NCBI RefSeq assembly: GCF_900113955.1
Contig: NZ_FORH01000002.1
Location: 310,001-374,000, forward strand
Length of the DNA: 64,000 nt
DNA from: Celeribacter neptunius
Lineage (GTDB): Bacteria > Pseudomonadota > Alphaproteobacteria > Rhodobacterales > Rhodobacteraceae
Direction: 5' to 3'
In this document: in pieces, positions 10,526 to 31,087 of the stretch
Layout: every line of letters starts with the position of its first letter
Numbering within the stretch: position 1 is the first letter of the stretch
Program-made: the position numbers and the translations under genes
Notes under the pieces: generated by a model
What the model was told of the DNA's origin: nothing
What the model saw: only the letters and a program-made list of their open reading frames with translations
The model's database searches: none

Positions 10526-10738
10526 GAACGCCGCGCAACCGCCCGGAACAGCAACGCAGTTGCCCGGGCGTGCGGTCATGCTGAAAGCATGCCTCCGGCA
10601 TGACCCGTCCCGGCGGTCAGGCGCATTTGTCATCCCCGTGCAACGGACTGATCTTTATCGGATTTGGCTGACATAAAGCGCGGACCACCGAGAGCAGATG
10701 CGCCAGCCCACAGTCCGGCGCACGCCCTCATGTCGGTC
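10526..10738 (+). repeat. Interspersed inverted-repeat element, copy A (long subfamily)
   Basis: One of four related intergenic copies (others at 17477, 25838 and 30716). The inner part is bounded by GGGCGTGC (10566-10573) and GCACGCCC (10720-10727), 162 bp end to end. It contains a 32-bp hairpin module (10574-10605, arms GGTCATG/CATGACC) and the core GGATTTGGC..ATAAAG shared by A, B, C and D. Copy A matches the reverse complement of B over most of its length, including the GCAACCGCCCGGAA left flank. It fills the 351-bp gap between the 149-residue protein and the VOC gene; no other feature is seen there. Confidence 0.85.
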
Positions 10739-10836
10739 AAATCGTCGATGGCTGCTCCGTCCCGCGAAACCGTCATTCAAAATTCACACGCCCCCGCCAA
10801 GCTGTCGAAACCACTCTCCCAGACACAGAGCGCCCG

Positions 10837-11283
10837 ATGGAACCGCCCCTGATCCCCGAGCTCGCGGTCCGCGACACCGAGATCTCTCTCGCCTTTTATT
10901 GCAACATGCTCGGGTTCCGGCTCGATTACGCCCGCCCCGAGGAAGGTTTCGCCATGCTGGCGCTCGGGGAGGCGCGGCTGATGCTCGACCAGATCGGTCA
11001 GGGACGCGATTTCGACGGGGGACACCTGCCCTCTGCCCCGCCCTTTGGCATGGGGCTCAATCTGCAACTGCGGGTGCCGGCGCTCACACCGATCCTGGAG
11101 CGTCTCGCGCGCGCGCACCACCCGCTCTTGATCCCGGAAGAGACCCGCTGGTATCGCAATGGCGAGACCGAGTTGGGCCAGCGGCAATGCGTGGTGGCCG
11201 ATCCCGATGGCTATCTCATTCGTCCTGTCGAAGAGATCGGCACGCGCCCCGCCCGACCTGCGGTCCCCGGCGAAGCCCCCTGA
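10837..11283 (+). CDS. VOC-superfamily protein (glyoxalase/bleomycin resistance type)
   Basis: A 148-residue protein with paired beta-alpha-beta-beta-beta modules typical of the vicinal oxygen chelate fold. IPELAVRDTEISLAFYCNML is the standard N-terminal module, and the second ends in VVADPDGYLIRPVEEIG, the DPDGY motif of bleomycin-resistance-like members. These proteins either bind metal for glyoxalase-like chemistry or sequester drugs; a full set of metal ligands is not obvious, so binding rather than catalysis is possible. It directly follows repeat copy A. The role is unassigned. Confidence 0.82.
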   Translation: MEPPLIPELAVRDTEISLAFYCNMLGFRLDYARPEEGFAMLALGEARLMLDQIGQGRDFDGGHLPSAPPFGMGLNLQLRVPALTPILERLARAHHPLLIPEETRWYRNGETELGQRQCVVADPDGYLIRPVEEIGTRPARPAVPGEAP

Positions 11284-11352
11284 TCGCATTCACCGCATAG
11301 ACGCAGCGCGCGTGAGCCCCTAGACTGGCCGGAAACGCACAAAGTCACACCT

Positions 11353-11922
11353 ATGCCCTATCTCTGGACCCCGTCTGCCGACAGCTTTCTTGGCCCCGCC
11401 GGCACGCGACATGACAGTTCCCCGCCTCCGACGGAGCCCGAGGACGGGGCACCGTTGCTGCGGCTTGAGCTCTGGCCGCATCGCTCGCTCAAGGGCAAAG
11501 GGTTTTCCGCCGCGATCTGGCTGATGTTCCTGGGCGGGCTGATCCCGATCGTGCCTTTCATTGGCACGATTGCCTTCTGGGTCTTGCTGATCTTCATGAT
11601 GACCGCACTCACAGCCCTCTGGACCGCGCTCCGGCGATCGGATCGAGACCGGCTGCGCGAGGAGCTGCTGATCTGGCACGACCGGGTCACGCTGTCGCAT
11701 TGGCCCGAGAAAGGCGCGCGGCTCGACTGGCAGGCCAACCCCTATTGGCTCCGCCTCTCCCTGCACCCGTCGAATGGCAAGGTCGAACAATATCTCACAT
11801 TGAAGGGCGGCGGGCCCGAACATACGCGTGAGGTAGAACTTGGCGCGTTCCTCAGCCCTGAGGAGCGCGAACGCCTCTATGACGAGCTCAGCCGGGTGGT
11901 CGGACGACTGAAGACCGGCTGA
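11353..11922 (+). CDS. DUF2244 membrane protein
   Basis: The 189-residue protein has a Pro-rich N-terminal stretch, then LRLELWPHRSL, two closely spaced membrane helices (about residues 54-95, AAIWLMFLGGLIPIVPFIGT onward), and a soluble C-terminal half with VTLSHWPEKGARLDWQANPY. This is the DUF2244 layout common in alphaproteobacteria, where family members are often found near cytochrome oxidase genes; here ctaD is 1.5 kb away. The molecular role is unknown. It is convergent with the GatB/YqeY gene. Confidence 0.8.
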   Translation: MPYLWTPSADSFLGPAGTRHDSSPPPTEPEDGAPLLRLELWPHRSLKGKGFSAAIWLMFLGGLIPIVPFIGTIAFWVLLIFMMTALTALWTALRRSDRDRLREELLIWHDRVTLSHWPEKGARLDWQANPYWLRLSLHPSNGKVEQYLTLKGGGPEHTREVELGAFLSPEERERLYDELSRVVGRLKTG

Positions 11923-11987
11923 GCCGGTCGGTTCAAACGAAAAAGGCGACCCGAAGGCCGCCCTTTACCAGTTTCTGCAAAGCCACC

Positions 11988-12449
11988 TCAGCAGCCGAGC
12001 TTTTCCTTCACCATCGGACCGGCGGCGCCGAAATCCATCTGGCCGGTGAATTTGGACTTCAGAGCCCCCATCACCTTGCCCATGTCGCGGATGCTTTCCG
12101 CGCCGGTTTCGGAAATCGCCGTCTCGATGGCTTTCGCCACCTCATCGGCATTGAGCTGACGCGGCAGAAACTCCTCGATCACGGTGATCTCGGAACGTTC
12201 CTTTTCCGCCAGCTCCAACCGTGCGCCCTCTTCAAAGGCTTTCGCGCTTTCCTGACGCTGCTTGACCATCTTGCCGAGAATGCCCAGCACATCGTCATCG
12301 GAAACGACCACGTCCTCGCCTTCGCCACGGTTCGCGATCTCGCGATCCTTGATGGCGGCATTGATCAGGCGCAGGGTGGCCAGCCTCTCGCTGTCCTTTT
12401 CCTTCATCGCCGTTTTCAGTGCGGCATTGAGCCGGCTTCGCATATCCAT
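11988..12449 (-). CDS. GatB/YqeY-domain protein
   Basis: A 153-residue helical protein homologous to the tRNA-binding tail domain of GatB. It begins MDMRSRLNAALKTAMKEKD and contains ATLRLINAAIKDREI and LGILGKMVKQRQESAKAFEE, then IEEFLPRQLNADEV and IRDMGKVMGALKSKF. These are family hallmarks. The free-standing YqeY proteins probably bind tRNA, but the role is not established. The gene is divergent from carA, an arrangement common in Rhodobacteraceae. The full amidotransferase subunit gatB is at 22830. Confidence 0.9.
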   Translation of the reverse strand: MDMRSRLNAALKTAMKEKDSERLATLRLINAAIKDREIANRGEGEDVVVSDDDVLGILGKMVKQRQESAKAFEEGARLELAEKERSEITVIEEFLPRQLNADEVAKAIETAISETGAESIRDMGKVMGALKSKFTGQMDFGAAGPMVKEKLGC

Positions 12450-12585
12450 ATGGGCCTCATCCCCTGGTTATCTTGCAAGTGGCCACCATAGACAAAGCCG
12501 ACGGGCTTCTCAACCTTAGATGGGAGCGATAACAGATCGAAATTGCCGCAGCGCGGAAATGACCGGAAAAACGCTTCCCCCGCGC

Positions 12586-12613
12586 TTGACCTCGCCGGTC
12601 CCTTTCCTTAGGT
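12586..12613 (+). promoter_or_regulatory. Candidate carA promoter
   Basis: TTGACC (12586-12591) and TTAGGT (12608-12613) are separated by 16 nt and fit a sigma-70-type promoter about 35 bp before the carA start. Confidence 0.5.
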
Positions 12614-12648
12614 TCCGGCCAATTTTGCCCTTATAGGAGAGTCGCGCC

Positions 12649-13821
12649 ATGGCATCTGGTCTGCAGTCCGGAAAACCAACCGCTTGTCTGGCTTTGGCCG
12701 ATGGAACCATCTTCTACGGCAAGGGGTTCGGCGCCACCGGCACCACCACCGCCGAGCTGTGTTTCAACACCGCGATGACCGGCTATCAGGAGATCATGAC
12801 GGACCCGTCCTATGCCGGACAGATCGTCACCTTCACCTTCCCGCATATCGGCAATGTCGGTGTGAACACCGAGGATGACGAGACCGCCAATCCGGTAGCC
12901 GCCGGCATGGTGGTGAAATGGGACCCGACCGATCCCTCGAACTGGCGCGCCCAGGACGAGCTCGGCCCCTGGCTCGAGAAACGCGGTCGCATCGGCATGG
13001 GCGGCATCGACACCCGCCGGCTCACCCGCGCCATCCGTCAGCAGGGCGCACCGCATGTCGCGATCCAGCACGATCCCGAAGGCAATTTCGACATCGAGGC
13101 GCTGGTGAAACAAGCCCGCGAATTTTCCGGTCTTGTCGGATTGGATCTGGCCAAGGATGTCACCTGCGCCCAGAGCTACCAATGGGATGAAATGCGGTGG
13201 GCCTGGCCCGACGGTTTCCCGAAACGGACCGGCAAGGGGTTCAAAGTCGTGGCCGTGGACTTTGGCGCCAAACGCAACATCCTGCGCTGTCTCGCCTCCG
13301 CGGGCTGCGATGTGACCGTGTTGCCGGCGACAGCCACAGCGGAAGAGGTGCTGGCGCATCACCCCGATGGCGTGTTCCTGTCCAATGGCCCCGGCGATCC
13401 GGCGGCAACCGGCGAATATGCCGTGCCGATGATCAAGGGCGTGTTGGAGCAAGACTTGCCGGTCTTCGGCATCTGTCTCGGTCACCAGATGCTCGCGCTC
13501 GCGCTTGGCGCCAAGACGATCAAGATGAACCACGGCCATCACGGCGCCAACCACCCGGTCAAGGACCTCGACACCGGCAAGGTGGAAATCACCTCGATGA
13601 ACCACGGCTTCACCGTCGATGCGCAAAGCCTGCCGAAAGGCGTGAAAGAGACCCATGTCTCGCTGTTCGATGGGTCGAACTGCGGCATTGCGGTCGAGGG
13701 CAAGCCGATCTTCTCGGTGCAATACCACCCGGAAGCCTCGCCCGGTCCGATGGACAGCTACTACCTGTTCGAGCGCTTCGCCACCGCCATGGCCGCGCGC
13801 GAGGCCGCTGCGGCCAGCTGA
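12649..13821 (+). CDS. carA: Carbamoyl-phosphate synthase small (glutaminase) subunit
   Basis: CarA hydrolyses glutamine and channels ammonia to CarB to make carbamoyl phosphate for arginine and pyrimidine synthesis. The 390-residue protein has the N-terminal CarA domain (CLALADGTIFYGKGFGATG; CFNTAMTGYQEIMTDPSY) and a class I glutamine amidotransferase domain with the nucleophile in VFGICLGHQMLALALG and the His-Glu pair in VQYHPEASPGP. The length is normal. It has its own promoter and terminator; carB is not in the window. Confidence 0.97.
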   Translation: MASGLQSGKPTACLALADGTIFYGKGFGATGTTTAELCFNTAMTGYQEIMTDPSYAGQIVTFTFPHIGNVGVNTEDDETANPVAAGMVVKWDPTDPSNWRAQDELGPWLEKRGRIGMGGIDTRRLTRAIRQQGAPHVAIQHDPEGNFDIEALVKQAREFSGLVGLDLAKDVTCAQSYQWDEMRWAWPDGFPKRTGKGFKVVAVDFGAKRNILRCLASAGCDVTVLPATATAEEVLAHHPDGVFLSNGPGDPAATGEYAVPMIKGVLEQDLPVFGICLGHQMLALALGAKTIKMNHGHHGANHPVKDLDTGKVEITSMNHGFTVDAQSLPKGVKETHVSLFDGSNCGIAVEGKPIFSVQYHPEASPGPMDSYYLFERFATAMAAREAAAAS

Positions 13822-13847
13822 CGCACGCATCTGCTGACATTCGGGAC

Positions 13848-13875
13848 AAAGGCGGCTTTCGAGCCGCCTTTTTTC
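13848..13875 (+). terminator. Rho-independent terminator of carA
   Basis: AAAGGCGGCT and AGCCGCCTTT form a perfect stem with a TTCG loop, followed by TTT. Confidence 0.92.
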
Positions 13876-13926
13876 ATGCGTCGCGCTCCCCCGTTCACGT
13901 GCAAAGCCTCGCGCAACCATACCGGA

Positions 13927-13942
13927 TTAACGCGTTATTAAC
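13927..13942. promoter_or_regulatory. Full CtrA-type box (TTAA-N7-TTAAC)
   Basis: TTAA-CGCGTTA-TTAAC matches the alphaproteobacterial CtrA consensus at every fixed position. It lies 118 bp before the glycosyltransferase gene at 14060 and after the carA terminator, so the glycosyltransferase gene is the only plausible target. Two GANTC (CcrM-type) sites follow within 40 bp. Binding is not proven. Confidence 0.6.
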
Positions 13943-14059
13943 CAGAATCACTCACCCTTAAGTTGAGAATCGAGGTGCAAACTCGCCCAAAACATCGAGC
14001 AGCCAAACAAGTAATCAAGGCCTGGACACATCCGGGGCCATGACGGGGTATGTGCTGCG

Positions 14060-16702
14060 ATGTCCGGTGATCGACATCTTCATGACGTGATATTGAACCG
14101 GGTCGCGCTCTCACCGCTCGTGCGATCCGTCACGCCGCCGAAACCCGCCAAACGGCTCAATTCGAATCTGCTCCGCCCCCAGCCCGTTCCTTCGGGCAAA
14201 GGCAAACCGATCGGGCAGGTCCTTGTCGACATGGGGGCGCTGACGCCGGACAATCTCTTGCGCGCCAGCGCCATGCGTCAACGCGAAGACACACGGATCG
14301 GCGATATTTTCCTGGCCCATGGCATGGTCACGGAAGATGAGCTTCATCAGGCACTTGGGGCACAATACCATGCCGAGATCGCAAACCTGTCGGACATCCG
14401 GCCTGATGTCCGGCTGATCGACCGGATCGGTGCGGATGAATGCCTCCGGCGCGGCATCCTACCCTGGCGACAGGCCGGCGGCACGGTGATCATCGCCTCT
14501 TGCCGCCCCGAAGAGTTCGAGGCGGCGCTACCGGAGCTTTCCGCCCGGTTCGGACCGGTTCGCATGGCGCTGACCTCGGAAACCGCGCTCCATGAGGCGC
14601 TGCTCCATACCCGGCAACGCCGCCTCGCCGCCGCCGCCGAAACCCGGGTCGCCGCCCATGAGAGCTGTCGCGAAATGGATTTGCACAGGCTGACCCAGAT
14701 GTTTTCTGCGCTCGGGGTGGCCGGGATCGTTCTGGCGCTGCTGTCACCCCTGGCCGCCGCCGTGCTGCTCATCGCATGGGCGGTTCTGACGCTTGCGGTC
14801 GCGACCGGGCTCAAGCTCGCCGCCGGCTTTGCCCAGGCCCGCACGGCCCATGACCGCAAGACCATATTCGAGGTCAAGCGCGGGATCACCCGCCTGCCGA
14901 CCGTCTCGGTCATGGTGCCGCTGTTCAAGGAACGCGAGATCGCCACACGGCTGATCAAACGCCTGTCCCGGCTGAATTATCCGCGCGAGCTGTTGGACAT
15001 CTGCCTCGTCGTCGAAGAAGACGATCAGGTCACCCAGGACGCCATTGCCCACACGGATATGCCGCGCTGGATGCGCCAGATCATCGTGCCGCGCGGCAGG
15101 GTAAAGACCAAGCCACGGGCGCTGAATTTCGCGCTGGATTTCTGTCGCGGATCGATCGTCGGCATTTATGACGCCGAGGATGCCCCGGAACCGGAGCAGA
15201 TCCACAAGGTGGTCGCGCATTTCGCCCAGACCGGTCCCGAAGTGGCCTGTGTGCAAGGCGTTCTGGATTTCTACAACGCCCGCACCAATTGGCTGTCGCG
15301 CTGTTTCACCGTCGAATATGCGAGCTGGTTTCGAGTGATCCTGCCCGGCTATGAGCGGATGGGGCTGACCGTGCCTCTGGGCGGCACAACCCTGTTTTTT
15401 CGCCGCGACGCGATCGAGGAGCTGGGCGGTTGGGACGCGCATAATGTCACCGAAGATGCCGATCTCGGCATTCGTCTGGCGCGTCATGGCTATCGCACCG
15501 AGCTTTTGAGCACGGTGACCGAGGAAGAGGCCAATTGCCGGCTCTGGCCCTGGGTCAAACAGCGGTCGCGCTGGCTCAAAGGCTATGCCATGACCTATGC
15601 CGTGCATATGCGCCAGCCGCAAAAGCTTTGGCGCGATCTCGGACCCTGGCGCTTCTTTGGCGTTCAGGCGCTGTTTCTCGGCACGCTGAGCCAATTCATC
15701 CTCGCGCCCTTCCTCTGGTCCTTCTGGATGTTCCCCCTGGGCCTGCCGCATCCGATGCGGGCGGTGTTGCCGCATGATCTTCTGGTGGTGCTGGGCGGGA
15801 TCTTCCTGTTTTCCGAAGCTGTCACCGTGGCCACCGGCATGGTCGCCACCTCGACGCGGAACCACAGATGGCTCTGGCCCTGGGTGCCGACGCTACATCT
15901 CTATTACCCGCTGGCAACGCTGGCGGCGCTGAAAGCGCTCTGGGAAATGGTGTCAAAGCCCTACTATTGGGACAAGACCACACATGGGGTGGACGATTTT
16001 GGGGTGGACGATTTCGAGTTTGCTGATGAGATACAGATCGAGGCGGCGGGGACCTTTTCCGACGGCGAGAACAGCCTCAGCCCCCTACTCACGCCCAGCT
16101 CCATCCCCGGCCCCGCCAGCCCCGGCCCGGTTCATCCCGGTCGCGATGGCGCCCCGGCACCCAGCGCGACGGAAACGACGCAGGACGGGCAGCCCCCCAC
16201 GGCTCTGCCAGCCCTGTCGTTATGGTCCGAAGGGTCGGCCAGCGATGTGTTTCAGCACTTGGAAAAACGCGCCGGAGACAGGTTGCCGGAGGCGCCACGG
16301 CGTCTCACCTTCGGTCTCGACCTGGGCGGCGCACACCCCCACCCGGGGGCGCCATCTCGGCTGAGAGCGCAGCGTGATCCGGCCCCAGCCGCACAGGGCA
16401 TGGAGATGACCTCCGGTGATCCATTGCCGGAACCGGAGCTCGCCCCCGCCCGGTCGCACCCCGCACCGCACGCCGCCGCAGCCATGGCGCAGAACCACCT
16501 GTCTTCTCTCGGAAAATTTTCCGGCACCCCTCTCAGCCCATATCTGCGCAAAGGCGCAAGACAGGGCACGGGACCGGACCAGCCCCAGGTCACCGCTTTT
16601 GCCGATGCGCCCGCACTGTGCCGGATCAGAGAGAGACCCGAGGAAGACCCCGCCGCTCTGCCGTTTTTGCTCGGCGCAGCGCAGCGGATCAAGCCACGTT
16701 GA
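14060..16702 (+). CDS. Membrane GT2 glycosyltransferase with N-terminal MshEN-like domain
   Basis: An 880-residue protein. Residues about 50-102 contain two tandem MshEN-like motifs (IGQVLVDMGALTPDNLL and RIGDIFLAHGMVTEDEL) separated by five residues, the layout of c-di-GMP-binding MshEN domains. Two membrane helices follow (about 210-255), then a processive GT2 domain with VSVMVPLFKE, the variant DxD region YDAEDAPEP, TEDADLGIRLARHGY and the acceptor motif KQRSRWLKG, then further helices to about residue 650. It probably makes or exports a polysaccharide in response to c-di-GMP. The last 220 residues are Pro/Ala-rich and look disordered, with a GVDDF duplication at the junction. The substrate is unknown. 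Preceded by a CtrA box. Confidence 0.85.
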   Translation: MSGDRHLHDVILNRVALSPLVRSVTPPKPAKRLNSNLLRPQPVPSGKGKPIGQVLVDMGALTPDNLLRASAMRQREDTRIGDIFLAHGMVTEDELHQALGAQYHAEIANLSDIRPDVRLIDRIGADECLRRGILPWRQAGGTVIIASCRPEEFEAALPELSARFGPVRMALTSETALHEALLHTRQRRLAAAAETRVAAHESCREMDLHRLTQMFSALGVAGIVLALLSPLAAAVLLIAWAVLTLAVATGLKLAAGFAQARTAHDRKTIFEVKRGITRLPTVSVMVPLFKEREIATRLIKRLSRLNYPRELLDICLVVEEDDQVTQDAIAHTDMPRWMRQIIVPRGRVKTKPRALNFALDFCRGSIVGIYDAEDAPEPEQIHKVVAHFAQTGPEVACVQGVLDFYNARTNWLSRCFTVEYASWFRVILPGYERMGLTVPLGGTTLFFRRDAIEELGGWDAHNVTEDADLGIRLARHGYRTELLSTVTEEEANCRLWPWVKQRSRWLKGYAMTYAVHMRQPQKLWRDLGPWRFFGVQALFLGTLSQFILAPFLWSFWMFPLGLPHPMRAVLPHDLLVVLGGIFLFSEAVTVATGMVATSTRNHRWLWPWVPTLHLYYPLATLAALKALWEMVSKPYYWDKTTHGVDDFGVDDFEFADEIQIEAAGTFSDGENSLSPLLTPSSIPGPASPGPVHPGRDGAPAPSATETTQDGQPPTALPALSLWSEGSASDVFQHLEKRAGDRLPEAPRRLTFGLDLGGAHPHPGAPSRLRAQRDPAPAAQGMEMTSGDPLPEPELAPARSHPAPHAAAAMAQNHLSSLGKFSGTPLSPYLRKGARQGTGPDQPQVTAFADAPALCRIRERPEEDPAALPFLLGAAQRIKPR

Positions 16703-16708
16703 GCGGGC

Positions 16709-17353
16709 TCAGCGGATCTTTTCGGCGTCGATCTTGAGCCGTGTGACGAAGGCCTTGGAAATATGATCCGAGAGGGCCTTATGCGCGGCATCGCCATCGC
16801 GGGCCTCGATCGCGCTGACGATCTGGTCATGTTCCTTGATCGCCTCTTCGCCGCGCCCCTCGGCGGCCAAGGAGGTGGTGGCCAGAAGCGCCATGGAGCG
16901 ATGCACCAGATCGAGCTGTTGCACGAGGTATTTGTTATGCGAGGCAAGATGGATCTGTTTGTGGAAACGGCGGTTGGCGCGCGACATTTCCTCAGGATGG
17001 CCGATGAGCGCGCGGTCCTCCTCGACCATATCGCGCAGCACCCGGACCTCTTCGGGGGTGGCATGGCGCGCCGCCAAACGCGCGGCCAGCCCCTCAAGCT
17101 CGGTGCGGACCACGTAGAGATCGGCCATCTGGTTGTGATCCAGCGAGGCAACGATCAGGGACCGCCCGTCGCGGGTCAGCATGGACTGGGTCTCGAGCCG
17201 CTGCAACGCCTCGCGGATCGGCGTGCGCGAGACGCCGAACCGATCCGCCAGCTCGCTTTCGACCAGCCGGTCGCCCGGACGATAGGTCCCGGTATCGATC
17301 GCCTCGAGGATCAACTCATAGGCGTCTTTCTGGCTGACACGCGGGTCTTTCAT
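16709..17353 (-). CDS. GntR-family regulator, FCD subfamily
   Basis: From the ATG at 17353 the protein is 214 residues and begins MKDPRVSQKDAYELILEAID; the frame stays open upstream but that part is not GntR-like. An N-terminal winged helix (YRPGDRLVESELADRFGVS, RTPIREALQRLETQ) is followed by an all-helical FCD domain with the metal/ligand residues spread through D-x-x-x-H-type helices (RRFHKQIHLASHNKYLV). FCD regulators usually control sugar-acid or organic-acid catabolism. It converges with the glycosyltransferase gene (6-bp gap) and has no obvious partner operon. Effector unknown. Confidence 0.88.
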   Translation of the reverse strand: MKDPRVSQKDAYELILEAIDTGTYRPGDRLVESELADRFGVSRTPIREALQRLETQSMLTRDGRSLIVASLDHNQMADLYVVRTELEGLAARLAARHATPEEVRVLRDMVEEDRALIGHPEEMSRANRRFHKQIHLASHNKYLVQQLDLVHRSMALLATTSLAAEGRGEEAIKEHDQIVSAIEARDGDAAHKALSDHISKAFVTRLKIDAEKIR

Positions 17354-17476
17354 CTCAAGGCTCTCTTTCGCTTCATCGCTTCCCGGACAGGGCAGAACCA
17401 TAGACAGGCCAATGCCTTGCAATCAAGCGCTAACATCGTCGCAGACCGGGGGAAAGAGAGAGCGCAGCGAGGTTTG

Positions 17477-17706
17477 AGTCCATGTCGGACATTGGTCACG
17501 AGGGCGTGCGCCGGACCGTGGGCTGGCGCATCTGACATTTGAACGAAACGCTTTATCTCAGCCAACTCCGGAAAAGATCAGATCGTTGAGCAAGAATGGC
17601 AATGCGCCAGACCGGTCGTGCTGAAAGCACGCCCCCGGCGTGACACGGTCCGGCGCACGCCCGGGCAACTGCGTTGCTATTCCGGGCGGTTGCGCGAAGT
17701 TCGAAC
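17477..17706 (-). repeat. Interspersed inverted-repeat element, copy B (long subfamily)
   Basis: This copy has perfect 19-bp terminal inverted repeats, GGGCGTGCGCCGGACCGTG (17502-17520) and its reverse complement (17644-17662), 161 bp end to end. It is in inverse orientation to copy A, but its internal hairpin module (17614-17644, GGTCGTGCTGAAAGCACG...) runs in the same direction as in copy A, so the module is flipped relative to its flanks. It occupies most of the 423-bp gap between the GntR gene and the HAD phosphatase gene; nothing else is seen there. Confidence 0.88.
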
Positions 17707-17776
17707 ATCCCCTCCGCCTCGCAACGCCCCGCGTTCTCCCCTTGCTCCTCCCCACGCACTCACGTACCAAGCCCGC

Positions 17777-18430: not shown

Positions 18431-18575
18431 GCCCCACGGGGCGCGGGTGCGCGGCGTTTTGCCCTGCGTCAAACTGTCTAGGTGACCACCTGAGCCGCGG
18501 TTTCGTATCAAGGCCGGAACCAAAACCCGCGCCGCAAAAACGCGCGAAAACCGCATAACGCCACGGAGCACGCAC

Positions 18576-18806
18576 ATGACTGACGCCACCTTTGCATCGA
18601 CCGCAGCCGTAGAGTCCCACGACCACCACGAAGACGGCATTGCCACCCCGCGCGGCGTGGCCCTGTTCCTGCTCTTCGTTGTCGCCGCACTTTCCGCCGT
18701 GGCCTACGGCGTGTTCACCATCGGGCCGTGGGTGCTCGGCCTGACCGCCCTGGCTTTCGTGCCGGTGATCTACCTCACGCTGATCCTGCTGACCACCGGT
18801 CGCTGA
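18576..18806 (+). CDS. Small two-helix membrane protein
   Basis: The 76-residue protein has a His/Asp-rich N-terminal tail (ESHDHHEDGIATPRG) and two hydrophobic helices (about residues 29-50 and 53-74) ending LILLTTGR. I do not recognise the family. Its TGA lies within the first unit of a 39-bp tandem repeat. Start choice is supported by GGAGCACGCAC just upstream. The function is unknown; a His-rich tail could bind metal, but that is speculation. Confidence 0.6.
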   Translation: MTDATFASTAAVESHDHHEDGIATPRGVALFLLFVVAALSAVAYGVFTIGPWVLGLTALAFVPVIYLTLILLTTGR

Positions 18807-18931
18807 GACAGCCTAAGGGGAAAGAGCTGATCTCAGCTGCGCTGAGACAGCCTAAGGGCGAATAGCTGATCTCAGCTGCGCTGAGACAGCCTAAGGGCGA
18901 ATAGCTGATCTCAGCTGCGCTGAGACAGCCT
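18803..18931. repeat. 39-bp tandem repeat, 3.3 copies, with internal palindromes
   Basis: Three full 39-bp units (starting 18803, 18842 and 18881) and a 12-bp partial unit. Units two and three are identical; unit one differs at three positions (AAGGGGAAAGAG in place of AAGGGCGAATAG). Each unit junction contains CTCAGC-TGC-GCTGAG, a 6-bp-arm hairpin. The array overlaps the stop of the 76-residue gene and ends about 70 bp before the UbiH-type gene. Confidence 0.93.
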
Positions 18932-19002
18932 GTCCCTTTTACAAACCTCTCTTTTGCGCCTATCTCTTGCGAAGCACCGCAGCTGGCGCAAAGGAGATGC
19001 AC

Positions 19003-20256: not shown

Positions 20257-20280
20257 CCCGAAGCCCCCCGCGAAAACAGA

Positions 20281-22672: not shown

Positions 22673-22829
22673 CACACCGCCCATCACCACAGCACCCCAG
22701 ATGGGCCACCCCGGCCCAATCTCCAAATCCCGCCTATAATGCCCGCTGGGCGCCGCTTTGCAAAGTCGCCCTCTTGCCCCTCGGCAAGAGAGCGCCTAGA
22801 ACGCCAGAAAGCCAGACCAGATCAGGACA

Positions 22830-24353: not shown

Positions 24354-24358
24354 GACCC

Positions 24359-24388
24359 AAAGCCGACCCCAGCGGGTCGGCTTTTTTC
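24359..24388 (+). terminator. Rho-independent terminator of gatB
   Basis: AAAGCCGACCC and GGGTCGGCTTT arms with a CAGC loop are followed by TTT, beginning 5 bp after the gatB stop. Confidence 0.92.
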
Positions 24389-24406
24389 ATTTCCGGAGGC
24401 TTTAAC

Positions 24407-24892: not shown

Positions 24893-24995
24893 GACGGTCA
24901 ACCCTCTGTCGAGGCGCAGTTTTCCACTCTGCAAAAGCGTCAATCCTCCATTAACGCGCCCGCCGATATGATGGTCCCAGTCAAAGGAGGCCCTC

Positions 24996-25277
24996 ATGTC
25001 CCATTACGAGTATAAAGCCATCCCGGCCCCGCATGATGGCGAGGCCACCTATTCCGCCCAGACGCCCGAGGCGCGGCTGGCCGAAGCCCTGACCGTGCGG
25101 CTCAACGCCATGGCGGCGGATGGCTGGACCTACCTGCGCAGCGACGCCTTTCATCTGCATGGCGCCAAGGGCAAACAGGATGTGCTGATCTTCCGTCGGG
25201 AAACCGATTACGGGATATTCCATGGCGACAGGCCGGATTATGGCAAGTTCGACCCCGAGGAAGCCACCGGCACCTGA
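24996..25277 (+). CDS. DUF4177-type small protein, copy 1
   Basis: A 93-residue protein beginning MSHYEYKAIPAPHDGEA. It shares with its downstream neighbour the pattern Y-E-Y-x-x-x-P-A-P...R-x-A-E-A-x-x...G-W-x-Y-L-R-x-D...V-L-I/V-F-R-R-E, typical of DUF4177 proteins. The ribosome binding site AAAGGAGGCC is strong. It is soluble with no catalytic motif visible. The function is unknown. Confidence 0.75.
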   Translation: MSHYEYKAIPAPHDGEATYSAQTPEARLAEALTVRLNAMAADGWTYLRSDAFHLHGAKGKQDVLIFRRETDYGIFHGDRPDYGKFDPEEATGT

Positions 25278-25432
25278 GGAAAAAGACCCAGGGCGTCAGC
25301 TGAGCAGGAAACCGCGTCCCGGGAGATCGCGCCCCCCGCACCGGCCGCCATGGCTTGACCCGCCGGTCTCATCCGCTAAACCTCTGCCAAAGATCACAAG
25401 GCCGCGCGTCGCGGCTGGCAAAGGAGTGGCCG

Positions 25433-25813
25433 ATGCCCCGCTACGAATATCTCACCGTCCCCGCACCGCGCAAAGGCGAGAAGGCCAAAGGCGTGAAAAG
25501 CGCCGAAGCCCGGATCGCCCAGGCGATGCAAAGCGTGCTGAATGAAAAGGGCGCAGAGGGCTGGGACTATCTGCGGGCCGACCTTCTGCCGATGGAGGAA
25601 CGCGCCGGGATCACCTCGAAAACGGTGAATTACCACACGGTTCTGGTGTTCCGCCGCGAGCTGGCCGTCGAGACCGAGGGGCGTGTTTTCGGCGCCTATC
25701 CGGATCTTGAAGAACCGCAGGAAGAGGGGACAGAGACCGAAGAGGCCGGGGAAGAGGCGACAGCCCCTGCCCGACCGGTGCTGCGCGCCGAGAAGACCCT
25801 GCCGGAGGAGTAA
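25433..25813 (+). CDS. DUF4177-type small protein, copy 2
   Basis: From ATG 25433, preceded by AAAGGAG, the protein is 126 residues. The first 80 match the preceding gene in pattern (MPRYEYLTVPAPRKGEKAK; EGWDYLRADLLPMEE; TVLVFRRELA), followed by a Glu/Thr/Ala-rich, probably disordered acidic tail of about 40 residues not found in copy 1. The pair looks like a tandem duplication. Repeat copy C begins 25 bp after the stop. The function is unknown. Confidence 0.75.
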   Translation: MPRYEYLTVPAPRKGEKAKGVKSAEARIAQAMQSVLNEKGAEGWDYLRADLLPMEERAGITSKTVNYHTVLVFRRELAVETEGRVFGAYPDLEEPQEEGTETEEAGEEATAPARPVLRAEKTLPEE

Positions 25814-25837
25814 GACCGAAGGGCGGGAAAGAGGCCA

Positions 25838-26038
25838 AGGCGGACGTTCGAGCGATGAGCGCCTGCGCAGGCCCGTGGGTGAGCGCCGAGCCTTCAGAGG
25901 ACATCACTTTATACTTGCCAAATCCGTGAAACTTCAATGCGTTGTGCGCGGCTGGCAATGCGCTTGCCCGCCGGGACGGGCCAGCGCAGGCGCGGTGGCT
26001 TCGCCTTGTTCCGCGCCAGATGTATTCCGTTCGAACGT
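25838..26038 (-). repeat. Interspersed inverted-repeat element, copy C (short subfamily)
   Basis: Terminal repeats GCGCCTGCGCAGGCCC (25859-25874) and GGGCCAGCGCAGGCGC (25978-25993) match with one mismatch, 135 bp end to end. The reverse complement aligns with copy D through the whole inner part and both flanks. Compared with copies A and B it lacks the 32-bp hairpin module. It fills the gap between the second DUF4177 gene and bolA. Confidence 0.87.
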
Positions 26039-26068
26039 CCGCTCCGCCCGCAAAGCGGACTTCAACAC

Positions 26069-26353
26069 TCACCCATCCAGATCGAGCGCCAGCGCGTGGA
26101 TGCGAGGCACCAGATCGCCCAGCGCCTTGTGCACCATGCGGTGACGCGCCACGCGGCTTTGACCGGCAAAGGCATCCGCGCGGATCAGCACGTTGAAATG
26201 GGTCTCGCCAGAGGCCCCCGCCTTGCCCATTTCCCGGACCCCCGCATGGCCGGCGTGCCGCCCACTGTCATCCTCGATGATCAGCTCGCGCGGCGCGAAA
26301 GCCTCGCGCAAACGTATCTCCATTTGATCGGCGATTTTCATCTCATTGCACAT
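26069..26353 (-). CDS. bolA: BolA-family protein
   Basis: From ATG 26353 the protein is 94 residues. The BolA fold is shown by IRLREAFAPRELIIEDDSGRHA-type sequence with the conserved RHAGHAG segment, then THFNVLIRADAF, GQSRVARHRMVHKALGDLVP and a C-terminal IHALAL. BolA proteins pair with monothiol glutaredoxins to carry Fe-S clusters and influence cell shape. The divergent neighbour is a J-domain gene, an order that recurs in Rhodobacteraceae ahead of cobS. ATG codons at 26341 and 26392 are alternatives. Confidence 0.88.
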   Translation of the reverse strand: MCNEMKIADQMEIRLREAFAPRELIIEDDSGRHAGHAGVREMGKAGASGETHFNVLIRADAFAGQSRVARHRMVHKALGDLVPRIHALALDLDG

Positions 26354-26430
26354 TTCCGGCCCCCCGGCCCTTTTCCATTTTCCCGATATCATCTAAAGTC
26401 TTGCGTCCGAGTCGAAAAGGTTGAGGCAGC

Positions 26431-27066
26431 ATGGATAAGAAAGATCCTTTCGGTTTTGATATGTCGGTGTCTTCCGCGAAGAAAAACAAACGCGGCGGTC
26501 GCAGAGGCATGTCTGGAGCGTTCGAAACCTCCAAGCGAAAATGCGAATGGGACGGCTGTAGCGAGGCCGGACAATATCGCGCACCGCGCTCTCCGGATCA
26601 TCTGGACGAGTACAAATGGTTCTGCAAAGACCATGTGCGTGAATATAATCTGAAGTGGAATTTCTTCACCAACGCCAGTGAAGAGGAAATGGACGCGGCC
26701 TATAAATCGTCGCAGACCGGAGATCGTCCGACCAAACCCTTTGGCCGCAAATCGGTGGAGCAACGCGCCTGGGAGCGCCTCGGCATCGACGATGCCCATG
26801 AGGTTCTGGGCGAGAATGCCACGCGCAATCCGGGCAAGTCGGACCCCTCCGCACCGACCCGCAAATTGCCGCCGGTGGAGCGTCAGGCGATCGAGATCCT
26901 CGAAGCCAAGGATCATTGGACCAAGGCCGAGATCAAGAAACAGTATCGCGCGCTGATCAAGGTGCTGCACCCGGATGTGAACGGCGGCGACCGCTCGCAG
27001 GAAGAACAGCTGCAGCAGGTGGTCTGGGCCTGGGATCAGCTCAAGGAGAGCCGCTGGTTCAAATGA
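26431..27066 (+). CDS. J-domain protein (DnaJ-like co-chaperone)
   Basis: The 211-residue protein has an unusual N-terminal region with a Cys-containing module (KRKCEWDGCSEAG, KWFCKDHVREYNLKWNF) that could form a small zinc site, and a C-terminal J domain (about residues 145-205). The HPD motif is in ALIKVLHPDVNGGDRS, preceded by AEIKKQYR. Only the J domain is DnaJ-like; there is no G/F or substrate-binding domain, so it would direct Hsp70 to a special client. It is divergent from bolA (77-bp spacing). Confidence 0.88.
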   Translation: MDKKDPFGFDMSVSSAKKNKRGGRRGMSGAFETSKRKCEWDGCSEAGQYRAPRSPDHLDEYKWFCKDHVREYNLKWNFFTNASEEEMDAAYKSSQTGDRPTKPFGRKSVEQRAWERLGIDDAHEVLGENATRNPGKSDPSAPTRKLPPVERQAIEILEAKDHWTKAEIKKQYRALIKVLHPDVNGGDRSQEEQLQQVVWAWDQLKESRWFK

Positions 27067-27077
27067 GCCGGCGCCTC

Positions 27078-27095
27078 GGGCACAACTCAGTGCCC
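27078..27095 (+). terminator. Hairpin after the J-domain gene (weak terminator candidate)
   Basis: GGGCAC-AACTCA-GTGCCC directly follows the J-domain stop. No T run follows. It is followed by two 15-bp near-identical direct repeats GCATCGCG(T/A)CACATC at 27101 and 27119. Confidence 0.4.
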
Positions 27096-27247
27096 GTATC
27101 GCATCGCGTCACATCCCAGCATCGCGACACATCAAAGCGACCCCGGCATCTCGCGGTGCAGGGGTCAATTTTTTGGTAAGGTTCCCGCGCTATCAATCCT
27201 GTCCGGGGCAGCGCAGGTGACAGCCCCGCAAAGGGTAGTGGGGTCAC

Positions 27248-27838
27248 ATGTTCACAGCACAGGCACAAGCCAGATTATGGGAAACCATGATGCGTCTGTC
27301 GGTCAGCGCCAATGCGCTGATCTGTGGCTATGTCACCTCCTATGACGGGCTGTCCAAGGAACTCGGCCCCGGCCAGGCGATCATCCTGTTGTTGTTGGCG
27401 GCCACAACGGGGGCGCTCATCGCGCCGATGTTCAAACGCAGCTGGGCCGCCAATCTCTGGCATCTGCTCTGGGCCTCGATCATCACCACGATCCTCGCCG
27501 CAGCGATGACACTCGGGCTGCATCTTCTGTTCACCTCCTTGTTTTTCGGCCAGGAAATCGTGGCGCTGAAGACACTTCCGGCGACCATGCTCTCGGGCGC
27601 GATCCTCGCCCCTCTGGCCATCATCGGACATCTGCAAGGGTTGATGATCTGGTTCGGCTTCACCGCGCTTGGTGGCTGGCTGGCGCGCAAATCGGAGACC
27701 AAGGCCACGGAGGCTGCGACCGAGGGGGCGGAAAGGCGCCTGTCCGATCAGGACTATCGCGATCTTCCGGTCTCGCTGCGCGAGGCCCCGCCACGCCGCT
27801 CCCGCAAACGCGCGAAATCAACATTCGAACGCGGCTGA
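27248..27838 (+). CDS. Membrane protein with four predicted helices, paralogue 1
   Basis: A 196-residue protein with hydrophobic helices near residues 40-60, 70-95, 110-130 and 135-150, and a basic Arg-rich C-terminal tail (RDLPVSLREAPPRRSRKRAK). I do not recognise the family. Its centre (FKRSWAANLWHLLWASIITT, then GLMIWFGFTALGGWLARK) aligns with the gene at 28072 (KFRHFWASGPVHVIWAGLIT, then TILIWLGGSFVTSYCARR), indicating a duplicated pair. The function is unknown. Confidence 0.65.
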   Translation: MFTAQAQARLWETMMRLSVSANALICGYVTSYDGLSKELGPGQAIILLLLAATTGALIAPMFKRSWAANLWHLLWASIITTILAAAMTLGLHLLFTSLFFGQEIVALKTLPATMLSGAILAPLAIIGHLQGLMIWFGFTALGGWLARKSETKATEAATEGAERRLSDQDYRDLPVSLREAPPRRSRKRAKSTFERG

Positions 27839-28071
27839 GCGGAGCGCATCTCGGCGATTATACGCGCTCCGCTCTCCCGATCTCCCCCAATGGCAGCCCT
27901 TCGGCTCCGCCCCGGGCAACATTCTGGTAAGAAAACCTGCTTAATCTAGGTCGACGCTGCGGCACTCAGAAAACGCGCGTCGGGGAGCGGTCGCTTCGAT
28001 CACCGGATGATCTCGGAGGCGAGGTTGTCGGAGGATCATGAAAAGCCGTCTCCTGTTGGTTTGGGAAAGTC

Positions 28072-28626
28072 TTGGTCATGGAAAGTCACATGTGGCGCGT
28101 GTTCGGAAGACACGAGATGCCGCAAAACAGTCGAAAGGCAGAGACGCCCTCCCCCGGATGGCTGTGGCAAATCGCTTATATTTTTTCCTTCATCGCCACC
28201 AGCAGCCTGTGCCTGCTCACGGCCGTTTATGGCACGTTTGCCCGCACCATCGGTCACGACGCGGCGACATTGCTGACCGTGACGGCGGTCATCGCAACCA
28301 CCTTGATCGGCCCGAAATTTCGGCATTTCTGGGCCTCCGGCCCCGTCCATGTGATCTGGGCCGGGTTGATCACCTCGTTTCTCGCCTCGGGCACCGCACT
28401 TTGCGTCACGCAACTGGCCCAGGTGTTCTTTGAAGGCGACCCGGCACTGGGGCTCGTGTCCCTGCCGGTGACCTTCGCCTCGGCGGCGTTTCTGGTGCCG
28501 ATCTCGCTCTATTCGAACCCGCCGACCATTCTGATCTGGCTGGGGGGCAGCTTCGTCACCTCTTATTGCGCCCGCCGGATCACCCGGCTCGAACGGCTCA
28601 GAGAGGAGCATGGCAACAAGGGTTGA
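28072..28626 (+). CDS. Membrane protein with four predicted helices, paralogue 2
   Basis: Up to 184 residues; internal starts at 28090 and 28117 (MPQNSRKAE) are equally plausible. Four hydrophobic helices begin at WLWQIAYIFSFIATSS. It matches the 27248 gene in helix spacing, the F-x-x-x-W-A-x-x-x-x-H-x-x-W-A motif and the IWxG...AR ending, at low identity. A short basic tail follows. The 233-bp gap to paralogue 1 shows no other feature. The function is unknown. Confidence 0.6.
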   Translation: MVMESHMWRVFGRHEMPQNSRKAETPSPGWLWQIAYIFSFIATSSLCLLTAVYGTFARTIGHDAATLLTVTAVIATTLIGPKFRHFWASGPVHVIWAGLITSFLASGTALCVTQLAQVFFEGDPALGLVSLPVTFASAAFLVPISLYSNPPTILIWLGGSFVTSYCARRITRLERLREEHGNKG

Positions 28627-28650
28627 GCCCCGCGCCGCAGCCGCGCCACC

Positions 28651-29643
28651 TCAATGCGCGGTGTCCGCCTTGGCCTTGCCACTGAGCACCCGGATCAGCG
28701 GATTGATCAGCCGGGCCACGATCGGGATCAGGATCAGCCCGTAGATCAGCCCGAACACCCCGTCGAAAAACGCGGTCACCGCCCAGGCGACAGCGCCCGC
28801 AGCGCCTTCGAACGCCGTCTCGACACTGTGCGCGGCGGCCTCGGCGATGTCATGGATTCCCTCATAGGGTTGCGCCATGCCAAGCGTGTGCAGCCCGTGG
28901 ATCACGATGGAGCCACCGACCCAGATCATCGCCGCCGTGCCGACGATCATCAAAAGCTTCATCAGGACCGGCATGAACCGCACCAGACCACGGCCCAGCG
29001 CCCGGGTGGCCGCAAGCCGCCCGACACGCGCCAGCCAGAGCCCGAAATCGTCGGCTTTGACGATCAGGGCGACAGAGCCGTAGACCACCACGGTGATGAT
29101 GATGCCGGCGAGCGCCAGGGCACCGGCCTGAAACCAGATCGGCTGATCGGCATCGAGCGCCGCAAGGATGATGGTCATGATCTCGGCCGAGAGGATGAAA
29201 TCGGTCTTCACCGCCCCCGCCACCTTTTGCTCTTCGAGATGGCCGGGATCGCCCTCGTCCTCCCTGTGCCCGTCGGCATGGGGCGCATGGGGCTTGAACA
29301 GGTGATAGACCTTCTCCGCCCCTTCGAAACAGAGATACGATCCGCCAAGCATCAGCAAGGGCGTGATCAGCCACGGCGCAAAGCTCGCGAGAATGAGCGC
29401 CAGTGGCAGCAGGATCAAAAGCTTGTTGCGGATCGAGCCCAGCGCGATCTTGCCAACGATGGGCAATTCGCGCGCCGGCGAGAACCCGTGCAGGTATTTC
29501 GGTGTGACGGCGGCATCGTCGATCACCGCCCCCGCCGCCTTGGTCGAGGCCTTGACCGCCTGCCCCGCCACATCATCCACCGAGGCGGCCGCGATCTTTG
29601 CGATCCCCGCCACATCATCCAAGAGTGCCAAAAGGCCGCTCAT
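28651..29643 (-). CDS. DUF808 (YedI-like) inner membrane protein
   Basis: From ATG 29643 the protein is 330 residues. It starts MSGLLALLDDVAGIAKIAAA, followed by VDDVAGQAVKASTKAAGAVI and DDAAVTPKYLHGFSPARELP, the conserved N-terminus of the DUF808/YedI family, and has about six to seven membrane helices. The middle holds a soluble His/Asp-rich loop (HKPHAPHADGHREDEGDPGH-like, near residue 125-145). The role of the family is unknown. It is convergent with paralogue 2 (24-bp gap). Confidence 0.85.
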   Translation of the reverse strand: MSGLLALLDDVAGIAKIAAASVDDVAGQAVKASTKAAGAVIDDAAVTPKYLHGFSPARELPIVGKIALGSIRNKLLILLPLALILASFAPWLITPLLMLGGSYLCFEGAEKVYHLFKPHAPHADGHREDEGDPGHLEEQKVAGAVKTDFILSAEIMTIILAALDADQPIWFQAGALALAGIIITVVVYGSVALIVKADDFGLWLARVGRLAATRALGRGLVRFMPVLMKLLMIVGTAAMIWVGGSIVIHGLHTLGMAQPYEGIHDIAEAAAHSVETAFEGAAGAVAWAVTAFFDGVFGLIYGLILIPIVARLINPLIRVLSGKAKADTAH

Positions 29644-29839
29644 CGCCGATCCCTTTCTGTCCGTTTCCCCGCACAGTACGGGGCTTCGCCGGTCAGGCAA
29701 AGGGGCGAAAACGGGGAATATTGCCGCGCGCCGATCAGATCACCTCTCCCGGAGCGATCGGCCCGCAAAAAAGGGGGCGCAACCGCCCCCTTTCGCTCCG
29801 GCATGACACAGGCCTGTCGGAGATCTGCCGTCGCTGGCT

Positions 29840-30391
29840 TTACATCGCCGGCAAAAGCACCTTGTCGATGACATGGATGACGCCGTTGGACTGTTCCACA
29901 TCCGCGATGGTCACATGGGCGACATTGCCATTCTCGTCTTCGATCATGATCTTGTCGCCGTCATAGGTGGCCTGAAGCATACAGCCGCCGACCGTCGGCA
30001 CGGGATGTTTGCCGCCATCATCGTCAATCATGCCCTTGATCGCGTTCGACATCGCATCGGCGGCCACCACGTGACAGGTGAGGATCTTGGTGAGCTGATC
30101 CTTGCTTTCCGGCTTCAGCAGGGTGTCGACCGTGCCGGCGGGCAGCGCATCAAAGGCGGCATTGGTCGGCGCGAAGACGGTAAACGGCCCCTCGCCCGAC
30201 AGGGTTTCGACCAGACCCGCGGCTTTCACCGCCGCAACCAGCGTCGTGTGATCGGCGGAGTTCACGGCATTTTCGACAATGGTCTTGTCGGCATACATCG
30301 GCGCGCCCCCGACCGTCGGGTTGGCGGCAAAAGCGGTGCCCGCGAAGAAGGCAGCGGCGGTCAGAGTCGTGGCGAAATGTGCGATTTTCAT
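29840..30391 (-). CDS. Secreted fasciclin-domain protein
   Basis: From ATG 30391, preceded by GGAGAG, the protein is 183 residues with a signal peptide (MKIAHFATTLTAAAFFAGTA, cleavage after AFA). The mature protein is a single fasciclin (FAS1) domain: TLVAAVKAAGLVETLSGEGP, FTVFAPTNAAFDALP and the closing NGVIHVIDKVLLP. Such proteins act in surface adhesion or envelope stress. An ECF sigma/RskA-type anti-sigma pair lies upstream on the same strand, and fasciclin genes are known targets of SigK-type sigma factors, so this is a likely regulon member. A TGAAAC-N17-CGTGAC pair about 75 bp upstream is a possible ECF promoter. Confidence 0.9.
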   Translation of the reverse strand: MKIAHFATTLTAAAFFAGTAFAANPTVGGAPMYADKTIVENAVNSADHTTLVAAVKAAGLVETLSGEGPFTVFAPTNAAFDALPAGTVDTLLKPESKDQLTKILTCHVVAADAMSNAIKGMIDDDGGKHPVPTVGGCMLQATYDGDKIMIEDENGNVAHVTIADVEQSNGVIHVIDKVLLPAM

Positions 30392-31087
30392 TTTGGTCTC
30401 TCCATTGGTTTCACTGCACCGGGGCGTTTGCCCTGGTTGCAGGGAGTCACGGAGAGGCGACGGCAGGAGTTTCAAAAAATCTGCACACATTGCCATCACA
30501 GGCGCGTGAAGATTTTCAACACCATGTTTCCAAATGGAAAATATACGATCCCTGCGGTCGAACATCGTGCATCTTTGAGACTACGCTGCGGATTTTTGAG
30601 CCTTGTCAGGCGGCCGCGTCAGGCAATCTGGCCCCACCCCTCAAGCATTTGCGACCCAAACCGGATCTTCGACGGGGGAGGCACGCGAGGGTCCGTAGCG
30701 CAGGACTTTTCTGCTGTTCGAACGAAGTTCTATCAGGCGCGGAACAAGGCGAAGCCGCCGCGCCTGCGCTGGCCCGTCCCGGCGGGCGAGCGCATTTTCA
30801 TCCGCGTACAACGGATTGAAGTTTCTCGGATTTGGCAGGCATAAAGTGCAGACCACTCAGCTTATGGCACTCCCCCACGGGCCAGCGCACGCCCTCGTGC
30901 CCAACGTCCGCCTTGGACTCACAGCCGACCTTCGCCGCACGAAGCACAAACGGCAGCTTCCCCTTACCATATGCGACCATATACGCTCTGGGTCAGGGTC
31001 CTGACCGGTAAGCCAGCTTCGTCAGACAGACAACATCCACAGCAGAAAGACGATCATGAAGCCCGAGGTGCCGGCTGAGCTCTGCTA
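30392..31087. other. 696-bp intergenic region containing repeat copy D
   Basis: The gap lies between the anti-sigma stop and the fasciclin start. It holds the fasciclin promoter region (30400-30500), repeat copy D (30716-30917) and AT-richer sequence near 30960-31010. No ORF with a convincing start, codon use or homology was recognised; the frame through copy D is discussed under findings. Confidence 0.6.
30716..30917 (+). repeat. Interspersed inverted-repeat element, copy D (short subfamily)
   Basis: Terminal repeats GCGCCTGCGCTGGCCC (30760-30775) and GGGCCAGCGCACGCCC (30879-30894) match at 14 of 16 positions, 135 bp end to end. The core GGATTTGGC..GCATAAAG and both flanks (GTTCGAAC left; AACGTCCGCCTTGG right) match copy C. 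It lies in the same orientation as copy A. Confidence 0.87.

Follow-up and report, generated by a model that had tools for sequence, protein, structure and literature searches.

A folded intergenic repeat dispersed through Celeribacter neptunius and other Rhodobacteraceae, probably a small mobile element

The stretch of Celeribacter neptunius DNA studied here (the window: 64,000 bp, positions 310,001–374,000 of NZ_FORH01000002.1, contig C9 of the 4.40 Mb genome G000) contains four copies of an intergenic palindromic repeat, the conserved inner part of which, about 165 bp long, we call E. The four related copies had been pointed out in an earlier inspection of the letters (the sequence-only reading) and proved to be real. 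Repeat finding paired them well above the background of window repeats, with copies 3 and 4 matching over 165 nt at 84% identity and copies 1 and 2 over segments of 49 nt (94%) and 38 nt (95%), and a MAFFT alignment of the copies was made. The seed of a covariance model (R1) comprised 16 copies, of which 13 came from this genome, 3 from relatives and none from the window. The model located E at 10537–10727 in copy 1 (+ strand, 100.4 bits, E-value 7.2e-18), at 17502–17691 in copy 2 (− strand, 130.4 bits, 6.8e-24), at 25859–26020 in copy 3 (− strand, 124.6 bits, 1e-22) and at 30733–30894 in copy 4 (+ strand, 134.9 bits, 8.7e-25), the match lengths ranging from 162 to 191 bp. The extra match at 17490–17662 was an antisense shadow of copy 2, and the R1 scan agreed with the sequence-only reading that the window holds no fifth copy. 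The intergenic location was likewise found for all four, in gaps between genes predicted by a simple caller of our own: same-strand gaps for copies 1 and 4, a divergent gap for copy 2 and a convergent one for copy 3.

The plan of E was common to thirty oriented copies of this genome and to copies from relatives. It starts at the 5' end with a hairpin, P1, which carries an unpaired AAYA(A) on its 5' side, and continues with arm A, a TCCCGG loop, arm B, a core, and arms C and D. Arms A and B can pair locally around TCCCGG. The core, about 75 nt long, is strand-specific and ends in TTGGCnGGnATAAAgcgC. Arm D can pair with A, and beyond D the 3' end carries a repeat of P1's outer strand, so that the segment from A to D can also close one long stem. 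The shared core string given by the sequence-only reading, GGATTTGGC..ATAAAG, was exact in copies 1, 3 and 4, but copy 2 reads GGAGTTGGC..ATAAAG. In the core of the window-species copies a promoter-like string, TTGATC..CATAAA, was noticed and is a candidate only. Some copies possess an optional extra hairpin, GTCATGCTGAAAGCATGCCTCCGGCATGAC. In the long form of E found in copy 1 it takes the place of part of arm A (10575–10604, + strand, read by eye), and in copy 2 an inverted variant lies in the A–B loop. Relatives of this hairpin without the rest of E were seen at two loci of another genome (L040 and L044 of G021), and it may be an independent module. The P1 hairpin of copy 4 is of the AACAAGGCGAAGCC form.

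In the window species E is mostly flanked by two outer ends, X and Y, which share only an inner part and between which E can lie either way. The ends were detected with regular expressions allowing up to 5 mismatches (0 matches in one shuffle of the same sequence), by scoring and by reading. Copy 1 has a Y end on its left (TTTGAGCC..GGCGACATTGG, 10503–10525, + strand, regular expression) and an X end on its right (TTTCGCGGGACGGAGCAGCCATC, 10747–10769, − strand, regular expression, scored X). Copy 2 (L086) has a Y end at 17473–17495 (TTTGAGTCCATGTCGGACATTGG, + strand, regular expression, scored Y). Copy 3 (L089) starts with a degenerate end at 25830–25850 (AGAGGCCAAGGCGGACGTTCG, no strand assigned), Y-like by eye and unclassified by score, and finishes with an X end at 26034–26056 (− strand, AACGTCCGCTCCGCCCGCAAAGC on the + strand, by reading and score). 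The ends of copy 4 (L085) are both degenerate: type X at 30696–30724 (+ strand, by reading and score), and, at 30900–30925 (− strand, CCCAACGTCCGCCTTGGACTCACAGC on the + strand), an end that is Y-like by eye and unclassified by score. The flank types proposed in the sequence-only reading were thus partly recovered, the left one (GTTCGAAC) at copies 2, 3 and 4 but not at copy 1, which has GGGAAC, and the right one (ACGTCCGCC) exactly at copies 3 and 4 and at neither copy 1 nor copy 2.

Among 31 copies of this genome that were scored (L066–L095 and copy 1), 9 had at least one unclassified end. The other 22 had X on the left and Y on the right in 14 cases and the reverse in 8, with no XX or YY pair. 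The outer ends of the relative G148, aligned without L216, L224 and L225, are longer, of one kind and inverted, and share GGAGCGGACRTT with X. No outer sequence was conserved over 94 copies from other genomes, though a few copies within one genome shared flanks (L171, L172 and L175 of G262; also in G168). A second repeat, GGTGGGTTGGAAACCCACCCTACG, whole, in part or as a variant, was seen in the 75-base flanks of the G052 copies read (L226–L234). In the old copy L084 of the window species, X and Y ends were not recognisable by score. In our view E is probably the ancestral unit, and the outer ends are particular to single lineages. The idea that an X–Y unit pre-existed as a target for E was dropped, as an exact pattern search returned no exact empty X–Y unit; the 12 end matches in 464 kb included an X end standing by itself (L046:19919) and a truncated copy (L050).

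In the whole genome R1 gave 119 matches at E-value ≤ 0.01, which reduce to 103 distinct places spread over nine contigs; copy 1 used as a DNA query returned 43. The comparison of relatedness took in 43 copies, leaving 60 of the 103 places aside, and within this set the nearest relatives of copies 1, 3 and 4 were on contig C5 (96.8%, 96.9% and 91.4% identity, respectively) and that of copy 2 on C17 (85.5%). Identity between copies on different contigs reached 97%. With 103 places, and the nearest relatives of the window copies on other contigs, the amplification was genome-wide. The probability of at least four copies in a fixed 64 kb was 0.066.

The sequence-only reading had proposed a search for further copies in this genome and in other Rhodobacteraceae, and they were present in both. 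Within the genus, 12 of 20 genomes had at least one match at E-value ≤ 0.01, the 11 besides C. neptunius holding 1 to 10. E was found in 126 of 296 genomes of the family Rhodobacteraceae (R1, E-value ≤ 1e-4) and in none of the 288 other genomes of a sample of the class, the own genome being the sole match of 289. The family and class counts are lower bounds, obtained with 9–10 candidates scored per genome and stricter filters; 150 candidates per genome were scored in the C. neptunius scan and in a rescoring of 12 genomes. These 12 showed 11 to 147 matches each, antisense shadows included, and G052, G168 and G148, with 147, 137 and 119 matches, represent separate large expansions. Three tandem copies spaced by about 205 bp were found on a plasmid of Pacificitalea manganoxidans (L256:2077–2648) and a single copy on a Salipiger plasmid, all confirmed by R1 and lying between annotated convergent genes. 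In G168 tandem or closely spaced copies were also present (L195, L196, L198, L199 and L200), unlike in the window. Most of the matches listed from other genera were 160–169 nt long. E is an inner element of about 165 bp whose length, fold and core are conserved through the family. No published description of it was found in the open-access literature searched, and an Rfam search of window positions 10000–31500 gave three weak matches, all of them off the copies and below the gathering threshold.

The fold was examined on an alignment of 102 sequences, 99 of them distinct after three identical rows were dropped. This alignment was fitted to the model and its sequences are related, so that the counts lean towards the model: 93.3% of the cells were paired, against 78.7% in column shuffles and 31–44% when the partners were slid by one to three columns, and two-sided, compensatory changes were seen in 26 of the 30 stem pairs. 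RNAalifold predicted 28 pairs on the same alignment, in largely the same helices, and 23 of them showed two-sided changes. The local pairings were also kept over the 99 sequences, in 96.2% of cells for A:B and 89.0% for C:D. At columns 51/103/195/217 the four arms changed jointly (GCGC in 68 and TATA in 12 of the 99 sequences), which indicates that the local hairpins and the long stem are maintained simultaneously. The core and the unpaired bulge were conserved over the 102 sequences. Folding of single sequences gave z-scores of −5.0, −0.6, −0.8, −2.6 and −0.8, three of the five hardly better than shuffles, and the case for the fold therefore rests on the comparative counts.

The mismatches in the main stems, counted in 27 of the 30 pairs (23–38, 24–37 and 50–218 being left aside), comprised 22 G-T against 30 A-C among 2649 cells. 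In the alternative pairing C:D there were 8 G-T and 17 A-C. The main helices suggest a fold of DNA rather than of RNA, because they show no excess of G-T over A-C, whereas an RNA strand should tolerate G-U, and because the four arms change jointly at columns 51/103/195/217.

The copies were not distributed evenly with respect to genes. Convergent gaps held 16 of the 30 top copies of this genome, 11 of the 16 copies on the 464 kb of C9 and 29 of 49 copies from other genomes, as compared to 51 of 241 gaps overall (binomial P of 1e-4, 6e-5 and 8e-9, respectively). Divergent gaps, 55 of the 241, held 1/30, 1/16 and 1/49 (P = 0.004, 0.09 and 5e-5). The first two sets overlap, the third counts one copy per locus, includes some loci that are mutual orthologues and was reduced from 53 by dropping 4 copies without a neighbour, and the null set of gaps, drawn with the same simple caller, includes those that hold E. 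A gene call overlapped E in 0/30 and 0/16 of the own copies and in 2/53 elsewhere. There was no clear strand preference with respect to same-direction neighbours (8 versus 5; 8 versus 11). This placement fits insertion where no promoter is broken, or a preference for gene 3' ends. It also fits a terminator role; against this, reading alone, with no dedicated terminator scan, showed no T-run after the stems and, for some copies, a separate terminator-like hairpin ahead of the element.

Comparison with relatives covered the sites of copies 2 and 3. A conserved neighbour gene had its best matches on Celeribacter contigs (9 of 18 loci). R1 found no match in 263 kb of syntenic sequence, taken from 12 loci of Celeribacter, Aquimixticola and Sedimentitalea. 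At the site of copy 2 the nine loci read showed a short gap without the element, as did the five orthologous loci read for copy 3. The relatives share a region ahead of the downstream gene that could not be recognised by eye in the divergent gap holding copy 2. As the orthologous gaps are free of the element, copies 2 and 3 are insertions specific to the window species or its lineage, as far as the loci read extend. The possibility of a conserved, non-mobile feature, considered in the sequence-only reading, does not apply to these two copies; L084, elsewhere in the genome, is an old copy that five congeners also have. Old copies were recognised at five loci by flanks common to several species at 71–97% identity (one locus in six genomes, one in five). 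Instability was visible too: L015, L020 and L253 have exactly lost the stretch between direct repeats inside E, and in L254 all of E is missing between the terminal repeats.

A mobilising enzyme was sought in two ways. The Y1_Tnp domain (PF01797) of the RAYTs, the tyrosine transposases associated with repetitive extragenic palindromic (REP) sequences, had no match in the C. neptunius genome, the same search being positive in 5 of 14 control genomes. Mobilisation by a RAYT, as for the paired REP elements called REPINs, was rejected on this ground and because no clear association with Y1_Tnp appeared over the 296 family genomes (E in 17 of 31 with the domain and 109 of 265 without). Of the four genomes with the highest copy numbers (G000, G052, G148 and G168), only G148 has Y1_Tnp. 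Of 102 copies, 9 had the tag GTAG within their first 25 nt and none within their last 25 nt. In G148 a 75-base outer-end query returned ten best loci, seven with a full E, one cut by a contig end (L255), one shortened (L253) and one without E (L254). No autonomous relative or parent insertion sequence was seen at these ten loci, the reading frames of which were not searched for transposases, and in seven of them, L255 included, the 260 bases before the end (85 in L255) showed no larger version.

Target duplications were looked for around 102 copies. The strongest direct repeat was that of the two ends of E itself (CGCCCGG...CGCCCGG), and these pair with P1 as well. Outside E there were only scattered small excesses, none of them clear, the largest among the top rows being 10 for 3-mers (2.0 expected) and 5 for 4-mers (0.6 expected). 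The direct flank scores of own pairs equalled the cross scores in four of six genome groups and exceeded them in G052 (47.8 versus 32.7, with another repeat in the flanks) and G043 (20.5 versus 16.8). Copy-specific outer palindromes were absent from all six groups.

We propose, with a probability of roughly 0.6, that each copy is a small, non-autonomous mobile element comparable to a REPIN or to a miniature inverted-repeat transposable element (MITE), and that an enzyme encoded at another site moves it in trans by way of its folded DNA. In this model the basic unit would be E, of about 165 bp and without a gene. E would become single-stranded during replication or by cruciform extrusion, and its hairpins and core would then be recognised by the enzyme, which would copy or move it and leave no lasting target duplication. 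The movement would resemble that of IS200/IS605-type elements or REPINs but employ a different enzyme. In the window species the composite X-E-Y (or Y-E-X) would have been amplified to about 100 copies, persisting mainly between convergent genes, where no promoter would be damaged. Movement in trans via folded DNA appears the most likely because the arms, the bulge and the core are conserved while the outer ends are not.

Several observations weigh against this model. Transposition was not observed, mobility being deduced from sequence comparison, and neither the Y1_Tnp search in C. neptunius nor the inspection of the ten G148 loci revealed the partner enzyme. A target duplication that is short or degenerate may have escaped notice, since no very close relative offered a clean empty site. 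Some copies are old and keep their position across species, which neutral mobility does not require. Inverted outer ends, expected of a classical MITE, are present in the copies of the window species and of G148. G-T exceeds A-C in the alternative pairings A:B (10 versus 4) and a':a'' (25 versus 10), and the remaining four-strand column sets show little variation or are disrupted in D (52/102/196/216: CGCG in 76, CGCT in 13). Finally, concerted correction of the palindrome at replication could yield covariation without an enzyme that recognises the fold.

This last point leads to the strongest of the competing explanations, in which the arms stay matched through template switching and the repair of imperfect palindromes, and the fold itself is not selected. 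In the main stems G-T and A-C mismatches are equally frequent, and the four arms change jointly, both of which speak for it; the deletions between direct repeats in L015, L020, L253 and L254 testify to unstable replication of the palindrome. Correction of arms is probably not the whole story, because it does not account for the conservation of the unpaired bulge and core; nor does it explain a length of 160–169 nt in most of the matches listed from other genera. We hold it to be a serious competitor with perhaps one chance in four.

A classical MITE is somewhat less probable. The outer inverted ends would be the terminal repeats of a lost insertion sequence, on which a DDE transposase acts, and the inner fold would be a passenger. 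The inversion of the ends in this genome and in G148, with GGAGCGGACRTT shared between the two, speaks for it. The conserved part is nevertheless the inner one, the outer ends differ between genera, and neither X nor Y could be recognised in the old copy L084. No clear target duplication was seen either, nor a larger version at the G148 loci, with the limit given above. The suggestion of the sequence-only reading that the repeats resemble MITEs or the palindromic elements of alphaproteobacteria thus holds for a dispersed palindrome without a transposase gene; it overlooked the conserved inner fold, the spread of E within the family and its occurrence with no X and Y ends around it, and E is probably not a plain MITE.

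It is improbable that E is primarily a structured RNA, such as a terminator, a stabiliser of mRNA 3' ends or a small RNA, selected at the 3' ends of genes and spread for that function. The preference for convergent 3' gaps, tens of bases past stop codons, would fit, as would a conserved strand-specific core and bulge, compensatory changes in 26 of 30 pairs, the excess of G-T in A:B and a':a'' and the positions kept in congeners. On the other side, the main stems have no G-T excess, no T-run was read and no Rfam match fell on a copy, no clear strand preference relative to same-direction neighbours was found, and the copy number varies within the family from none found to more than 100.

The locus of L084 raises a further possibility. 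There E lies behind the gene for ribosomal protein L23 (PF00276, E-value 5.8e-33) in 6 of the 20 genus genomes, one of the copies being truncated (R1). By eye, 3' remnants of E were visible in G001 and G007 and none in G006, G019 and G003. In G013 E stands alone between the terminator and the downstream anchor, and in G016, G014 and G004 differing cargo lies between the terminator and E. In C. neptunius (contig C13, approximately 445.5–446.4 kb, L265) E is followed by a 203-residue cargo frame, which had no Pfam match, and then by a repeat of E's 3' end. In G015 (L267:938–1594) a frame with an integrase core domain (PF00665, E-value 8.4e-14) runs into arm A of the truncated E. The gap behind the L23 gene (loci L258–L268) is a cargo hotspot, and E is there a landing point for other DNA. 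The integrase-type frame of G015 suggests that the palindrome of E may be an insertion target. One could go further and see in E a folded single-stranded DNA recombination site for a Rhodobacteraceae enzyme, which spreads and marks the places where foreign genes are taken up, because species carry different cargo beside E and the C. neptunius cargo is bracketed by E and the repeat of its 3' end; we rate this as a long shot, at about one chance in ten. Last, the expansion within 20 kb that the sequence-only reading had suggested from four copies in 20.4 kb deserves hardly any credence, since the genome has 103 places, the nearest relatives among the 43 compared copies are on C5 and C17 and not next door, and such a cluster arises somewhere in 66% of 2000 random placements. 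Three near-identical tandem repeats with a 39-base spacing (CGCTGAGACAGCCTAAGGG...) were also seen in the window, at 18801–18931, and have no evident relation to E.

The mobile element that we favour can be set beside several known systems. REPINs resemble E in layout, though not by sequence homology: two palindromic arms are inverted around a spacer, and the copies are intergenic, numerous, sometimes in tandem and accompanied by deletion derivatives. E differs by its additional bulged hairpin and conserved core, by the lack of a GTAG end tag and by the absence of Y1_Tnp from the genome. It is therefore not a REPIN, having neither tag nor RAYT, and belongs with the small palindromic mobile repeats of bacteria. 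In one account, REP sequences are handled as 16-mers (PMC3116915). The GTAG and CGTC repeats, which include the RPEs (palindromic elements) of Rickettsia, are dispersed palindromes with alternative complementary stem residues, like E. They bear a tetranucleotide tag at one end, GT pairing is reportedly frequent in the stems of the GTAG repeats, and the CGTC repeats "apparently lack a dedicated transposase" (PMC3733652). E, in contrast, has no end tag and few G-T pairs in its main stems.

The RIME and ABC elements of rhizobia are alphaproteobacterial intergenic palindromic repeats of about 100 bp. Bru-RS of Brucella, for which a table row reads 118, 222(69) (PMC2267715), is another repeat of this type and size. 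E was compared with all three by description and not by sequence; it was found only in a different alphaproteobacterial family and has a different, multi-strand fold. Prokaryotic MITEs are short, non-coding, intergenic and of high copy number, with inverted outer ends (reviewed in PMC10969869). E is likewise short, numerous and without a transposase gene, and has inverted outer ends in some genomes, but it is conserved inside rather than at its ends, and no clear target duplication or parent insertion sequence was found. The attC sites of integrons are sites just after a gene in which the fold of single-stranded DNA is conserved more than the sequence, with a GTTRRRY core. E is also a fold-conserved site after genes, and at the L23 locus variable cargo adjoins it. 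Its ends show no evident GTTRRRY, and no ordered cassette arrays were noticed.

The Rhodobacteraceae thus harbour a repeat whose fold, length and core are preserved through the family, which has more than 100 copies in some genomes and none found in others, and for which neither an Rfam match nor a published description was found. Its strong covariation without an RNA-strand bias in the main stems is a caution for the discovery of RNAs from covariation. At one locus, behind the L23 gene, the surroundings of E have received cargo genes and an integrase-type gene. The enzyme that would mobilise E is a concrete target to look for.

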